Source: a virus | IMG/VR virus record: IMGVR_UViG_3300026534_000036 | Coordinates: 1 to 21,770 of that record | Direction: 5' to 3' (one strand) | DNA: 21,770 bases | Shown: in pieces, positions 61 through 15,432 of the stretch | Numbering within the stretch: position 1 is the first letter of the stretch | Layout: every line of letters starts with the position of its first letter | The notes under the pieces: model-generated | Database searches by the model: none | Seen by the model: the letters and a program-made list of their open reading frames with translations, nothing else | What the model was told of the DNA's origin: nothing | Position numbers and translations under genes: made by a program

Positions 61-106
61 TGGTGGAGCTGAGCGGGATCGAACCGCCGACCTCCTGAAT
101 GCCATG
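61..106 (-). tRNA. 3' half of tRNA-Ala(GGC), partial; phage attachment site
   Basis: The minus strand carries the CCA end, the 3' acceptor strand, a complete T-arm (loop TTCGATC), the variable loop AGGTC and an anticodon loop ATGGCAT with anticodon GGC. This closely matches bacterial tRNA-Ala. Identity stops in the anticodon stem: the 5' strand pairs at only three positions and no D-arm or 5' acceptor strand follows. A tRNA 3' fragment next to an integrase gene is the classic footprint of integration into a tRNA gene. The intact tRNA should lie at the far end of the element, outside this window. The exact crossover point cannot be set from one junction. Confidence 0.85.
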
Positions 107-153
107 CAGCCGGTCATTGTTTTCTTGCCCTCTATTCATGGCTTTTTTTGTTG

Positions 154-210
154 AACCGGATAACATTTTTGTGCTTAAATGACAAGAAATGTTATCCGGT
201 TTTGTTATCC
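154..210. repeat. Inverted/direct repeats beside att; possible integrase or excisionase arm sites
   Basis: A perfect 15-bp inverted repeat (AACCGGATAACATTT at 154-168, its complement at 187-201) is followed by another copy of its core. The heptamer GTTATCC therefore occurs three times in 53 bases: inverted at 158-164, direct at 191-197 and 204-210. It lies 50-100 bases inside the tRNA fragment, where arm-type integrase sites usually sit, and overlaps the last codons of the integrase. A terminator is less likely, because no T-run follows on the integrase strand and only a short one on the other. Confidence 0.45.
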
Positions 211-1262
211 ACCACCAACCTGATGATCTTTTTATTGTCATCTTTTTCATTGGGAAGATCAGGCAAAAGATTTACGGCCCTTTGTTTTTCCCCATGCAAA
301 AGGTGATAATAAACGTCGCTTGTCATTTTGGTGCTTGAATGCCCGAGGATTTTAGAGACCGCGGCTAAATCGGCACCACCGGCAAGCATTACTGAAGCGA
401 AAAGATGCCGGAGATCATACATCCGAACAGGATATTTTATCCCGGCTTTTTTACATGCTGTCTTAAAGGAACGTCTTAATTGTTTGATCGGTTTCCCATT
501 ATATTCAATAAGGTATGGGGTGGAGGCAACCCTTTTCATTTCAAGCAACCTTTGTCTGAACGTCGCTCTTATAGGAACCTCGCGCCACGTTTTAGTTTTT
601 CGTCCGTACACACGGACCACCCCGGCTTCAAAATCAACTTGATCCCAGCGAATAGAGAAAAGCTCACTGGGGCCGGGACGGGTCCCAAGATTCCACTGGA
701 CTTCTATGGCCCATTTAAGATGAGGCGCGGCATGTTTATATATCTTTTGAAGATCATGGACAGTGAGAAGTGTTTGTCTTGGCACTTCTTTTGCTTTTTT
801 CCACGTCGCGAGGGGATTATTGTGTGTTAATCCATGTTTAATTCCAAAATTAAAAATAGCATTCATATAGGATAAATACCTATTCCTAGTGGATTGACTA
901 CGGTCTTTATAATATTCAGCGACTCTCATTACATCTTTATACGTAAGATGATCGACGGGTTTATTGGGGAGGATGGGAGCTATATGATTACGAATCAAAT
1001 TTACAAGTTCTTTAATATATTTTTTAGACCCTCCATTAGCTTGACAATTTTTGACATATTCTGCTGTCAAAGCGACAAAATTTGTCGATGCAGTAGCTCC
1101 AACTTGCCTGCCAAGTTTTTTCTTGGCTTTTATTTCAAAATCAAAAGCTTGGGCAAGTTTTTTCGCACCGGAACCACGACCAAAAGTCCTAGTTCGCTGT
1201 TTCCCGGACGAATCACGATAGCTTGCATACCAACGTCCGTCTGGTTTTTGATGAACACTCAT
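192..1262 (-). CDS. int: Tyrosine recombinase/integrase
   Basis: This 356-residue protein should integrate and excise the element at the adjacent tRNA-Ala site. The N-terminus (about 1-55) resembles a small arm-binding domain, residues about 60-155 a SAM-like core-binding domain, and 165-335 the catalytic domain. Visible catalytic residues are R195 (in TRPGPSE), a lysine at 222 or 224, R285 and H286 in YDLRH, H308 in LGHSS, and a nucleophile at Y318 or Y319. The first histidine of the usual HxxR box is a tyrosine, a common phage variant. The start overlaps the stop of the excisionase-like gene (ATGA), so the two are translationally coupled and probably expressed from the promoter at 1537-1566. 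Length and domain order are normal for phage integrases. Confidence 0.95.
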   Translation of the reverse strand: MSVHQKPDGRWYASYRDSSGKQRTRTFGRGSGAKKLAQAFDFEIKAKKKLGRQVGATASTNFVALTAEYVKNCQANGGSKKYIKELVNLIRNHIAPILPNKPVDHLTYKDVMRVAEYYKDRSQSTRNRYLSYMNAIFNFGIKHGLTHNNPLATWKKAKEVPRQTLLTVHDLQKIYKHAAPHLKWAIEVQWNLGTRPGPSELFSIRWDQVDFEAGVVRVYGRKTKTWREVPIRATFRQRLLEMKRVASTPYLIEYNGKPIKQLRRSFKTACKKAGIKYPVRMYDLRHLFASVMLAGGADLAAVSKILGHSSTKMTSDVYYHLLHGEKQRAVNLLPDLPNEKDDNKKIIRLVVDNKTG

Positions 1263-4706: not shown

Positions 4707-4729
4707 CGGGGTGGGAGACACCCACCCTG
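4707..4729 (+). other. GC-rich stem-loop between annealing protein and initiator
   Basis: GGGTGGG-AGACA-CCCACCC forms a 7-bp GC stem, extendable to 9 bp with a G-T and a C-G pair, in otherwise AT-rich DNA. There is no T-run on the plus strand, so it is not a standard terminator. It sits about 20 bases upstream of the initiator's start and could be an mRNA processing or stabilising element. Confidence 0.5.
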
Positions 4730-4749
4730 GATATAAAAAGGGGAAAGTC

Positions 4750-5703
4750 ATGGCAAGATCCAGGATAATTAAACCGGAATTTTTTAATGATGAAAAACTA
4801 GCTAAGATATCTCGTGATGCTAGGCTAGTTTTTGTTGGATTATGGGTTAACTCGGATGATTATGGAGTCGTGAAAGGACATCCGGCATGGCTAAGAAGTA
4901 TGATATTCCCATATGAATACGAAATTAAAATAAATCAATTTGAAAAATGGTTAGAAGAATTATCTAACATAGGAATGATTAGAAGATTTCAACACAATGA
5001 CGAAACATATTACTACATCGTCAACTTTTTAAAATTTCAAAAAATTCAAAAACCCTCCAAACAAAGAAATCCAGAACCACCAGAAGAAATAAAAAATTTA
5101 AAATTTTCAGAAAAAAAATTAGAAAAAAATAAAAAAAATATAAAAAATTCGGACGAAACAGAAACAGAAACAGAAACAGAAACAGAAACAGAAACAGAAA
5201 TAAATATTTTTGCTCGGAACGAAAAAAATCATTCCGAGCAACCACCAGCAAAACCACTCTTTGAAATTCCACTTGTCGGCACTAAAGATAAACATAAGAG
5301 TACACATAAAATTTATCCTGAAGATATTAACACTTGGCAGGAACTATACCCAGGCATCGACGTGGAAAAAGAGATACGGAAATTAGTTGCATGGAATATT
5401 GCTAATCCAACCAGAAGGAAAACCCCGAACGGGATTAACAGGCATATTAATAGCTGGTTGGCAAAAGCCCAGGATAGCGGAAACGGGAACAGAAAACACA
5501 AAATCCACACGAGGGCCGAAGCGGAAGAAGCGTGGAAAAAAGTAATGCTAAAAATTAGGGGGCATGGAGAATTAGACCCATACACTAAAGATATCATAGA
5601 AACGATGGGTGGAATTTCATCACTCGGTAAAATGACAGAGAAGGAAATTAATTTTAGACGGAATGATTTTTTTAAACTTTATGAACAAGGGGTTGAAAAA
5701 TGA
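4750..5703 (+). CDS. Phage replication initiator/helicase-loader-like protein
   Basis: The 317-residue protein starts with SRIIKPEFFNDEKLAKISRD and ARLVFVGLWVNSDDYG, the winged-helix N-terminus common to phage replisome organisers. In that family the N-terminal domain binds the origin and the C-terminal part loads the helicase. The middle (about residues 98-155) is lysine/glutamate-rich and includes a Glu-Thr dipeptide repeated seven times, encoded by a hexanucleotide tandem repeat. The C-terminal part (about 175-317) contains a possible DnaB-interaction region with INRHINSWLAKA. The ATG at 4750 was chosen because the conserved N-terminus starts there and AAGGGGAAAG precedes it. Its stop overlaps the dnaB start (ATGA), which fits initiator-helicase coupling. 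Confidence 0.75.
   Translation: MARSRIIKPEFFNDEKLAKISRDARLVFVGLWVNSDDYGVVKGHPAWLRSMIFPYEYEIKINQFEKWLEELSNIGMIRRFQHNDETYYYIVNFLKFQKIQKPSKQRNPEPPEEIKNLKFSEKKLEKNKKNIKNSDETETETETETETETEINIFARNEKNHSEQPPAKPLFEIPLVGTKDKHKSTHKIYPEDINTWQELYPGIDVEKEIRKLVAWNIANPTRRKTPNGINRHINSWLAKAQDSGNGNRKHKIHTRAEAEEAWKKVMLKIRGHGELDPYTKDIIETMGGISSLGKMTEKEINFRRNDFFKLYEQGVEK
5085..5240. other. Possible replication origin inside the initiator gene
   Basis: Three features lie together: an almost GC-free A-rich stretch (about 5085-5150), seven perfect GAAACA units (5155-5196), and a perfect 9-bp inverted repeat TGCTCGGAA / TTCCGAGCA (5211-5219 and 5232-5240, spacer 12). Lambdoid phages carry their origin within the initiator gene as repeats beside an AT-rich unwinding region, so the arrangement is suggestive. 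The GAAACA array could also be simple coding microsatellite. Confidence 0.4.
5155..5196 (+). repeat. Tandem repeat, seven GAAACA units
   Basis: Seven perfect hexamers encode seven Glu-Thr pairs. The unit length keeps the frame, so slippage would change linker length without breaking the gene. Confidence 0.9.
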
Positions 5704-12696: not shown

Positions 12697-13092
12697 ATGT
12701 TCTACACTATAGGATATCAAAAACGAAGACTCCAAGACCTAATTGATGATCTTGAAAAATGGTTAATTGATATTGTAATTGATGTCAGATCTAAACCAAA
12801 TTCAAAAAACCCGACCTGGAGACCAGATAATTTGAGGGATGCCCTGGGGAAGAGGGGTATAAAGTATTATTACAATGGCCGGAAATTGGGAGGATTTGGG
12901 AAATTTAATAAAGAAGCCCTTGAACCATATATAAAGAAAATCGAAAGAGATGAAATTAATATATGTTTTTTGTGCTTTGAGTCAGACCATAAAACATGCC
13001 ACCGATATTATAAAATAGGGAAGCTTCTAAACTCTAGGGGCCATACTGTTTGGCATATTACCCCATTGGGGAGACTATCGAGACAGAAATAA
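12697..13092 (+). CDS. DUF488-family protein
   Basis: The 131-residue protein matches DUF488: FYTIGYQKRRLQDLI at the N-terminus, VIDVRSKP (27-34), GIKYYYNGRKLGG (54-66) and the C-terminal LCFESDHKTCHR (92-103). The two conserved regions with Arg and Cys/His look catalytic, but the family's biochemical function is not established. The gene has its own operator-controlled promoter and its own terminator, so it is an independent cassette in the middle region. That layout is typical of morons, which add a lysogenic or host-takeover function. Confidence 0.88.
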   Translation: MFYTIGYQKRRLQDLIDDLEKWLIDIVIDVRSKPNSKNPTWRPDNLRDALGKRGIKYYYNGRKLGGFGKFNKEALEPYIKKIERDEINICFLCFESDHKTCHRYYKIGKLLNSRGHTVWHITPLGRLSRQK

Positions 13093-13154: not shown

Positions 13155-14462
13155 ATGTTCATTGGGGCGATTAAAGCTGAAATTAGAAGGTTCCTGGCAA
13201 CGCACGGAAAGATGTTTAATGATCGTGATATTTATATTGGGTGTTCTGGGAATTTCACGATTGAACAAACTCTTACGAGATATGCGAAACCGAAATCAAT
13301 CAATTCTAACGACGTATCACTATACACATGCACTCTTGCCGCTTTTTTCATGGGATCCAGGTTACCAATGAGGATTAAAAATGAGGAATACAAATTTCTT
13401 CAACCATTATTAGATTCAAACAAACAGGCTGCAGCCATAATTAACCTCACTGCACTTGGAGCATTCGCTAAGAGTAAAAACGCATATGCCAGACGGATGT
13501 TCAATGGATATAGACGACAACTCCTAAAAAATATCGAGACAACCCATAACCGCTTAAAAGAAATCAGGCCACACATTAGAATTGATTCATTTTTCCAGGG
13601 TGACGTAAGGGACTTTATTGACAATATTCCGGATGAAGCTGTCATTATTGCGTCCCCTCCAACATACAAAGGCGGGTACGAAAAGATATATGATTTTCTC
13701 GAATCAATTGTTGAGTGGGATAAACCGGATTACGCAATAATGGACGAGGATGGTTATTGCGAATTATTTTCGAAAATTAAGAAGCGTGGTAACTATATTT
13801 TTATATCTGACAGGGAAATTGATGAAGAGATAGCCGCTAAGTGTGATTACCGGGGATTTAAAACGATATATGTTTTCTCAGATCTTAACCCAAAAACATA
13901 TGTGAATAAAGACAAGCTGAATGAGCAAATAGTTAAATATCCGCTTATTAATTACCATGACAAGATAACAAGACATTCCCAATTAAAAATACACAAAACA
14001 ACGGCGAACATTTTTAATCATTATCGCTTTATGTTCATCAAAGGTGTTAAAAAAGTATCGAATGCAGGTGTACCCTTTTTAATCACTCTTGATGGTAAAT
14101 TGATCGGTTGTATAGCCGTGGACATAATAGCTTATGGGACTTCTTCGCGCCATATGCTTTACCTCAACTCAGATTTCGCGGTCCCGTATAGTCGATATAA
14201 GAGGCTCTCTAAACTTATTGTTATGGTGTCCCTCTCGACGGAAATTAAGGAATTTATGGAGCGCGAGAAGTTGCAAGAATTTACAACCCTGAGAACCACG
14301 GCATTTACAAACAAACCGGTTTCGATGAAATATAGGGGACCTTTTAAATTAGAAAAAAGACAAGAGGGCCAACTTAATTATATTGCACCATTAGGGTGCC
14401 AGGGACCATTAAAAAAGGTGCTAAAAACATGGCTGCAGAAGCACTCGCAGTATCAGCGTTAG
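13155..14462 (+). CDS. Mom-like DNA-modification protein with methyltransferase-like N-terminal part
   Basis: The 435-residue protein resembles the large phage proteins annotated as putative antirestriction adenine methyltransferases. The N-terminal part has MFIGAIKAEIRRF, IYIGCSGNFTIEQ (27-39), a QGDVRDF segment (148-154) and ASPPTYKGGYEKIYD (166-180), reminiscent of a methyltransferase SPP/DPP motif. The C-terminal 290-410 region resembles the GNAT-like Mom of phage Mu, with LIGCIAVDII, SDFAVPYSRYKRLSKLIV and TLRTTAFTNKPVSMKYRG. Mom adds a carbamoylmethyl group to adenine and protects DNA from restriction. I infer such a role; the exact modification is unknown. Its end overlaps the ParB-like gene by 34 bases. 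GGAGG lies 12 bases upstream, inside a terminator-like hairpin. Confidence 0.7.
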   Translation: MFIGAIKAEIRRFLATHGKMFNDRDIYIGCSGNFTIEQTLTRYAKPKSINSNDVSLYTCTLAAFFMGSRLPMRIKNEEYKFLQPLLDSNKQAAAIINLTALGAFAKSKNAYARRMFNGYRRQLLKNIETTHNRLKEIRPHIRIDSFFQGDVRDFIDNIPDEAVIIASPPTYKGGYEKIYDFLESIVEWDKPDYAIMDEDGYCELFSKIKKRGNYIFISDREIDEEIAAKCDYRGFKTIYVFSDLNPKTYVNKDKLNEQIVKYPLINYHDKITRHSQLKIHKTTANIFNHYRFMFIKGVKKVSNAGVPFLITLDGKLIGCIAVDIIAYGTSSRHMLYLNSDFAVPYSRYKRLSKLIVMVSLSTEIKEFMEREKLQEFTTLRTTAFTNKPVSMKYRGPFKLEKRQEGQLNYIAPLGCQGPLKKVLKTWLQKHSQYQR

Positions 14463-15361
14463 AGAAATTAAACAATTTCTTGGATCAAACTGGACTCGGA
14501 TTCCATATTGACCTAGTTGATCCCGGGGAAATCCAATACGCGGAGAAAAACGCTCGATACATGGATGACGCCACAATGAGGCGGCTGAAATCCAATGTTG
14601 AACAGGTTGGCTTTCTTGAATCATCAATTTTTTGTTACAAAGATAAAGGGAAATATAGAACTATATCCGGGAACCACAGGCTTGAAGCGGCCATTAACGC
14701 TGGGGTCCCTAAAATCCTGGTTATTTACCCAACCAGGAAACTTACACGAGATGAGATTATCAGTAAGCAACTTGCCCATAATGCAATTGTCGGCAAGGAT
14801 GACATGGTTGTCCTTGCTGAACTATACAACGAGATCCAAGATATAACTGCAAAAGAAGCCACGGGACTTGATGATGAGACCTTAAAACAGCTTGAGAAAA
14901 TGACATACGATACAATTAAGGAGACGAGACTTGATTTTGAATCGGTGACCCTTGAATTTTTCCCTGAAGAAAAAGAAGAGATCGAAAAAGTTTTTGAGAG
15001 CGTGCTTAACGCGCACCATGAGGATGAAAACTGGGTCCTAAAATACAAAGATTATGAGACTTTTTTCAACCTCATTAAATCTATTAAGAAAAATTTTAAT
15101 ATTCTTAATAATTCCATGGCATTACTGAAAATATTTGAGCTTGCAGGATATAAACTTAATGCTCTTGCAGGGGAGTCAGGTGAAAACTGGGTCGCACTTC
15201 CGGACCTATTCGGAACATTTGAGATCCCAGAAGAAATTGCACGTCTGGTAGAATCTGTAACAGAAAAAGCAATTAAAAAGGACGTTATTAAAAAATCAAA
15301 CAAATGGCAACTCATAGAATTTGCATTTGCAGAGTTAAATCAAACACTTGAAGCACTATAG
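14429..15361 (+). CDS. ParB/Srx-fold protein
   Basis: The 310-residue protein has an N-terminal ParB-type domain: DPGEIQYAEKNARYM, TMRRLKSNVEQVGFLES, then the signature TISGNHRLEAAINAG (78-92) and VIYP, followed by QLAHNAIVGKDD. The C-terminal two-thirds are helical and unrecognised. ParB-like proteins of phages often sit beside DNA-modification genes or near the terminase, and can be DNA-binding, nuclease or CTP-using proteins. This one overlaps the Mom-like gene, so a joint role in modifying or recognising phage DNA is plausible. An upstream ATG at 14396 exists, but AAAAGGTG precedes the ATG at 14429. Confidence 0.75.
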   Translation: MAAEALAVSALEKLNNFLDQTGLGFHIDLVDPGEIQYAEKNARYMDDATMRRLKSNVEQVGFLESSIFCYKDKGKYRTISGNHRLEAAINAGVPKILVIYPTRKLTRDEIISKQLAHNAIVGKDDMVVLAELYNEIQDITAKEATGLDDETLKQLEKMTYDTIKETRLDFESVTLEFFPEEKEEIEKVFESVLNAHHEDENWVLKYKDYETFFNLIKSIKKNFNILNNSMALLKIFELAGYKLNALAGESGENWVALPDLFGTFEIPEEIARLVESVTEKAIKKDVIKKSNKWQLIEFAFAELNQTLEAL

Positions 15362-15432
15362 GGCGGCCACCGGGAAGGCGGGTATATTGACCAGATATGC
15401 TCGATTGGTTCAACTCCAATATGGCCGCTCCA
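15361..15432 (+). ncRNA. tRNA-like cloverleaf element
   Basis: The DNA folds into a reduced cloverleaf. A 9-bp acceptor-like stem (15361-15369 with 15422-15430, one G-T) encloses a mini D-arm CCG-GGAAGG-CGG (15370-15381), an anticodon-like arm (15382-15387 with 15395-15400, loop TGACCAG) and a perfect T-arm ATTGG-TTCAACT-CCAAT (15404-15420). The T-loop fits the tRNA consensus TTCRANN. Reading the acceptor as GCGGCCA/TGGCCGC leaves T plus an encoded CCA at 15430-15432. The D-arm is far too short and position 33 is not T, so it is unlikely to work in translation. It fills the gap between the ParB-like stop and the candidate small terminase. Confidence 0.6.

Follow-up and report, generated by a model that had tools for sequence, protein, structure and literature searches.

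A viral DNA of 21,770 nucleotides, referred to here as the window, carries a tRNA-like element wedged between a gene for a ParB-like protein and the genes that follow. What is this RNA for, and why is it found at this place? The initial annotation had put it at 15361–15432; the element itself proved real but it starts at 15363, since the ParB stop codon ends at 15361. The features of the locus, all on the plus strand, are:

12697–13092, plus strand: DUF488 protein, a likely accessory of the DAM/GNAT cassette
13155–14462, plus strand: DAM-like and GNAT-phage-like protein (PF22555 + PF22559), similar in fold to E. coli Dam and phage Mu Mom, the putative glycyl transferase
14396–15361, plus strand: ParB-like protein (phrog_7405), cassette partner, ending 1 nt 5' of the RNA
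15363–15432, plus strand: tRNA-Gly-like RNA with encoded CCA, 70 nt, recognized by its fold, a covariance-model match, and family alignment with covariation
15363–15369, plus strand: acceptor 5' strand GCGGCCA, with G1, C2, and G3 of the glycine identity pairs
15370–15381, plus strand: reduced D region, 12 nt, with 2–3 possible pairs (CC/GG or CCG/CGG)
15382–15400, plus strand: anticodon-like arm, with the 7-nt loop TGACCAG (15388–15394), G33 (15389), and the anticodon ACC (15390–15392)
15404–15420, plus strand: T-arm, with ATTGG (15404–15408), the loop TTCAACT (15409–15415), and CCAAT (15416–15420)
15422–15432, plus strand: acceptor 3' strand TGGCCGC (15422–15428), discriminator U73 (15429), and CCA (15430–15432)

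Read 5' to 3', the element is GCGGCCA CCGGGAAGGCGG GTATAT-TGACCAG-ATATGC TCG ATTGG-TTCAACT-CCAAT A TGGCCGC T CCA. GTATAT and ATATGC are the two halves of its middle stem around the loop TGACCAG, and A15421 is one extra base between the T-arm and the acceptor. The acceptor stem forms 7 perfect pairs (15363–15369 with 15422–15428). The T-arm with TTCAACT, the discriminator, and the encoded CCA had all been described from the sequence, and each was located. At minimum free energy the element forms a cloverleaf whose D arm is vestigial (−32.2 kcal/mol, versus a mean of −21.6 for shuffled sequences). Compared with dinucleotide shuffles, the fold has a z score of −3.23, and 2 of 200 shuffles folded equally well; the opposite strand scored −1.15.

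ARAGORN called no tRNA at 15363–15432, and no Rfam family matched the element at or above its gathering score. The best Rfam match, to tRNA-Sec, was weak (15.7 bits versus a cut-off of 47), and we rejected this assignment because the score is below the cut-off and the anticodon is ACC, not UCA. A covariance model built from 11 other members, with the window left out, found the element at 40.2 bits (E = 5.6e-8) as its single match in the window, a score that measures likeness to tRNA and not membership of a special class because the same model gives ordinary tRNAs 25–55 bits. We therefore rejected the model as a class detector, and our class claims rest on anticodons, identity bases, and gene context.

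Single-sequence scans with TerS, TerL, or ParB found no close relatives of the window. A profile of the ParB-like protein yielded 80 viral loci, and two of these, which carry the same RNA (L139 and L142), have a tRNA-like element at exactly the window's place; its stems differ and its loop is again GACCAG. Later pattern scans of viral and bacterial contigs gave about 40 elements with full or nearly full acceptor pairing; the scans demanded GACCA and CGCTCCA, so the frequencies of G33 and ACC in this pattern-found set are biased upward. Three matches (L336, L343, and L345) were left out as ordinary tRNAs and 41 non-ordinary elements were counted. Two other search patterns were discarded: the T-arm motif alone retrieved many ordinary tRNAs and unrelated elements, and GACCAG was swamped by tRNA-Pro. 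The loci that we inspected also held other conserved noncoding or phage sequences. L004, L011, L013, L016, and about 20 more loci share a conserved phage sequence in which ATGGTTGCTTGCGTC is followed by the T-arm ATTGGTTCAACTCCAAT; ARAGORN called no tRNA there. In L103, L107, and L110, the ParB stop is followed by noncoding DNA that is AT-rich, conserved, and includes a TATATATATAT run.

We then aligned 66 distinct members, in which 97.1% of cells were paired and double changes occurred at 20 of 22 pairs (429 cells). The covariation score of 0.756 compares with 0.165 after shuffling and no more than 0.110 when partners were slid. Because the alignment had been fitted to the model, its counts lean towards it, but the margin is far larger than expected from this bias. 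RNAalifold, run on the same model-fitted alignment, predicted largely the same structure. The initial annotation had named an absence of compensatory base changes in relatives as the result that would speak against the element; the data strongly show the reverse. Thus, the element belongs to a real RNA class.

Which amino acid would such an RNA carry? G1-C72, C2-G71, and U73 are present in 66/66 members and G3-C70 in 65/66; C35 and C36 are also near-invariant, giving NCC anticodons. These conserved bases coincide with the published determinants of bacterial glycyl-tRNA synthetase, namely U73, G1-C72, C2-G71, G3-C70, C35, and C36 (PMC9976931). The window's element has all of them. By its glycine identity and a covarying cloverleaf beside DAM/GNAT cassette genes, it falls in the Mom/GNAT-linked class.

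U33 is needed for decoding. A translating tRNA-Gly requires U33 and a normal D-arm; the element has G33 and its 12-nt D region, as the initial annotation had seen in noting the lack of both. Its suggestion that the element is more a mimic than a translating tRNA fits these features, together with the kept glycine identity bases. U33 is absent in about three quarters of members overall, a set that includes the pattern-found elements and is biased. We therefore turn to the 29 distinct elements that were not chosen by RNA pattern: all 29 have an NCC anticodon and U73, and the base at position 33 is U or G in 13 each, C in 2, and A in 1 (the L155 loop was corrected by eye). The members that keep U33, about half of this unselected set, could translate. 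As far as sequence can tell, kept identity bases with a lost U33 are the pattern expected from selection for charging without decoding. Of 68 linked members, whose sources had been chosen as linked, 23 are 70 nt or shorter with a D-arm reduced as in the window. A G·A mismatch recurs in the T-stem of many members and is suggestive of weak EF-Tu binding in those members; the T-stem of the window is fully paired.

We wondered which genes keep company with this RNA. DNA-modification neighbors had been predicted from the window's DAM/GNAT gene before neighbors were clustered, and clustering agreed. The commonest neighbor of the pattern-found elements was the Mom family (PF25680, E down to 4e-53; phrog_1384), at 23 loci where the Mom gene abuts or overlaps the RNA. 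ParB-like proteins (19 loci) and the DAM-like/GNAT protein (7 loci) came next. HMM searches added 3 Mom loci, and Mom (26) and DAM/GNAT (7) together account for 33 of the 41 non-ordinary pattern-found elements. The other 8 (L293, L322, L325, L332, L334, L350, L352, and L353) show neither a Mom nor a DAM gene nearby; among them, L334, L350, L352, and L353 are Gly-like elements with G33 on bacterial contigs.

The linkage was also seen from the protein side. A DAM/GNAT gene is present in 77 of the 80 ParB-profile loci, and in at least 33 of these 77 the cassette includes a gene for tRNA-Gly or a Gly-like RNA, usually directly 5' of DAM and sometimes 3' of ParB as in the window; 3 more DAM/GNAT-ParB loci hold degenerate forms. 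A first descriptor scan of cassettes without an RNA match found nothing; a looser one, for which chance alone would give 0.45 regions, found elements in L148/L149, L171, Sting, and Clawz. When ARAGORN was run on DAM/GNAT-ParB cassettes, including that of phage Brigit, 18 of its 20 tRNAs were Gly, versus 7.8% in control phage loci (P = 2e-18). The remaining two calls are the Lys of Brigit and a "Ser" that overlaps a Gly-like element. No such RNA lies nearby in about half of the DAM/GNAT loci, and none was detected at most of the examined Mom loci that did not come from the RNA pattern scans, including those of Mu and about ten other phages (phiEf11 and JD024 among them), where it was sought by mom; the Mom locus of Pseudanabaena phage Pan3 gave only a marginal model match (E = 0.03). 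Because no such RNA was seen nearby, host tRNA-Gly must suffice in these Mom and DAM/GNAT loci. In Mom loci such as L242 and L307, the frame of mom often stays open through the tRNA-like element, with tails like DQxxxGGSTPT.

The same arrangement occurs in cultured phages. A tRNA-Gly or Gly-like gene lies immediately 3' of mom in Arthrobacter phages BarretLemon and Sicarius2 and in Salinibacter phage B2_17, and right after mom on the opposite strand in Microbacterium phage Dropshot. Psychrobacter phage Y8A has two tandem tRNA-Gly-like genes after mom (L362, 3162–3302), with T-loops that start TGC, not TTC; its genome paper reported no tRNA genes (PMC10434257). In Mycobacterium phage Jeon, an annotated tRNA-Gly(tcc), the sole tRNA annotated in bases 1–56000, overlaps the start of the DAM/GNAT gene. 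Gordonia phages Sting and Clawz have unannotated covarying Gly-like elements in the slot before DAM/GNAT. Faecalibacterium phage Brigit has an unannotated tRNA-Lys(CTT) (L396, 13917–13993) in the slot that tRNA-Gly occupies in other DAM/GNAT-ParB cassettes.

To what extent does the window's modification protein resemble Mom? The protein was modelled with AlphaFold2 (mean pLDDT 87.8); the model matches E. coli Dam, and the GNAT structure that its GNAT part matches is phage Mu Mom (8bv8, E = 1.8e-4). Profile comparison of the GNAT domain with Mom by hhalign gave a probability of 77% (E = 2e-5). The protein has no match to Pfam Mom (PF25680) and matches PF22555 and PF22559 instead. Its similarity to Mom, as read from sequence profiles and the predicted structure, is confined to the level of fold and profile. 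The DUF488 gene recurs by DAM/GNAT genes and not by Mom (window, L142, L116, L118, L134, L148, L165, L171, and L314), and its product is possibly an extra component of the DAM/GNAT cassette. On the other side, 28 bases separate the 3' end of the element from a small HTH protein, which is likely the small terminase; the element's position in the gap before the terminase is incidental. Elsewhere in the window, the 3' part of a tRNA-Ala(TGC) gene (62–112, minus strand) adjoins an integrase (192–1262, minus strand) and is probably an attachment site, separate from the tRNA-Gly-like element. An ORF at 4711–5703 contains a run of alternating Thr-Glu residues (TETETETETETETETE).

The modified base of phage Mu is glycinamide-adenine (N6-carbamoylmethyl-adenine). 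In one review, the acyl group that Mom transfers comes from an acyl-CoA, for instance glycyl-CoA (PMC7824862). According to a 2025 conference report, hypermodification of adenine in Mu depends on tRNA-Gly for the transfer of the glycyl group (PMC12908700). Given the gene linkage and this reported dependence, a dedicated glycyl carrier for a DNA-modification enzyme is the simplest account of the element. We thus think it probable that this phage-encoded RNA mimics glycine tRNA and carries glycine for DNA base modification. The RNA would be cut out of the mRNA and, as the conserved identity set suggests, charged by the host glycyl-tRNA synthetase; G33, the small size of the D-arm, and the unusual junction of acceptor and T-arm would keep it out of translation and away from EF-Tu. 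By analogy with Mom, the GNAT domain of the DAM-like/GNAT protein would accept the glycyl group and attach it to adenine of the phage DNA, possibly in partnership with the ParB-like protein. On chemical grounds, the glycyl group would go to N6 and then rearrange intramolecularly to glycinamide-adenine as in Mu. Glycine on the phage's own DNA would most likely serve as protection. Counting against this reading are the many Mom loci and about half of the DAM/GNAT loci with no RNA detected nearby, the unselected members that keep U33 and could translate, the tRNA-Lys of Brigit, and the 8 pattern-found elements that lie by neither gene.

The best-surviving alternative, which we still judge unlikely, is a phage tRNA-Gly kept for translation that is now decaying and lies by DAM/ParB genes by chance. 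tRNAs are common in phages, 13 of the 29 unselected members keep U33, and some members are canonical tRNA-Gly. However, decay would not spare the acceptor, U73, and C35/C36 with covariation in every stem, and the slot, mostly glycine (18/20), is common to unrelated phages and to two different enzyme families. A dedicated Gly-tRNA could instead serve elsewhere outside the ribosome, donating glycine to, for example, a protein or a cell-wall precursor, as the non-proteinogenic tRNA-Gly of Staphylococcus does for peptidoglycan (PMC9976931, PMC4052509). We give this little credence: the partner proteins are of DNA-modification types (Mom, DAM-like), and no Fem-like gene was recognized among the recurrent neighbor clusters.

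A cis-acting structure, whether an mRNA processing point, a translation control element, or a packaging signal before the terminase, had been offered by the initial annotation and now looks highly improbable. The element does fill the ParB-terminase gap of the window and would have to be cut from a shared transcript. However, relatives keep the RNA by Mom or DAM/GNAT-ParB, usually 5' of DAM or where mom ends and not next to the terminase, and in Dropshot it is on the other strand. A processing site would need neither the NCC anticodon nor U73, and the invariant bases are those that glycyl-tRNA synthetase reads. The packaging-signal idea was dropped because the position relative to the terminase is not conserved. 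Least probable of all is a decoy, a role that had also been proposed; its target could be a toxin or anticodon nuclease of the host, or a T-box riboswitch. TacT and other GNAT toxins read Gly-tRNA-Gly via U73 and G71 (PMC9976931) and a non-translating mimic could titrate them, but this leaves unexplained why relatives' RNA stays beside the Mom and DAM/GNAT-ParB DNA-modification genes.

If the RNA is indeed a glycine carrier for DNA modification, phage tRNAs would have a function beyond translation, with their genes providing dedicated cofactors to DNA-modification cassettes. The linkage would then support, from independent comparative data, the view that glycyl-tRNA is the donor that Mom uses, and would extend this chemistry to DAM-like/GNAT-ParB cassettes. 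A tRNA-Gly by a GNAT gene would mark amino-acid-based DNA modifications, with the cultured phages as a ready test set. Our literature search for a phage tRNA-Gly serving DNA modification, which covered no preprints and few subscription papers, gave only the Mu note (PMC12908700). More speculatively, and with considerable doubt, we suggest that some phage tRNAs only carry an amino acid for DNA modification and that the tRNA of a cassette sets which one, mostly glycine and perhaps lysine in Brigit; the D-arm and U33 may have been lost in some because the ribosome is never met.

How does the element compare with known systems? It shares with canonical bacterial tRNA-Gly the full glycine identity set, CCA, and the T-loop, and differs in its G33, reduced D-arm, extra base at the T-arm/acceptor junction, and lack of an ARAGORN call. 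Like tRNA-Sec and tRNA-Pyl it has unusual arm lengths, and its weak Rfam match is to tRNA-Sec; unlike them it has neither a UCA or CUA anticodon nor a long variable arm, and it has U73 and glycine identity. The phage Mu system has a GNAT-fold enzyme acting on adenine, as proposed for the window, with reported use of tRNA-Gly (PMC12908700); no such RNA was detected by Mu mom, whereas the window has a DAM-like/GNAT fusion, a ParB-like protein, and its own tRNA. The non-proteinogenic tRNA-Gly of Staphylococcus, which serves peptidoglycan bridges, provides glycyl-tRNA for a non-ribosomal transferase, as the element probably would, and has changes expected to weaken EF-Tu binding or decoding. Those changes are at 49-65, 51-63, and 18-19, whereas the element, which is phage-borne and linked to DNA-modification genes, has G33 and has lost its D-arm.
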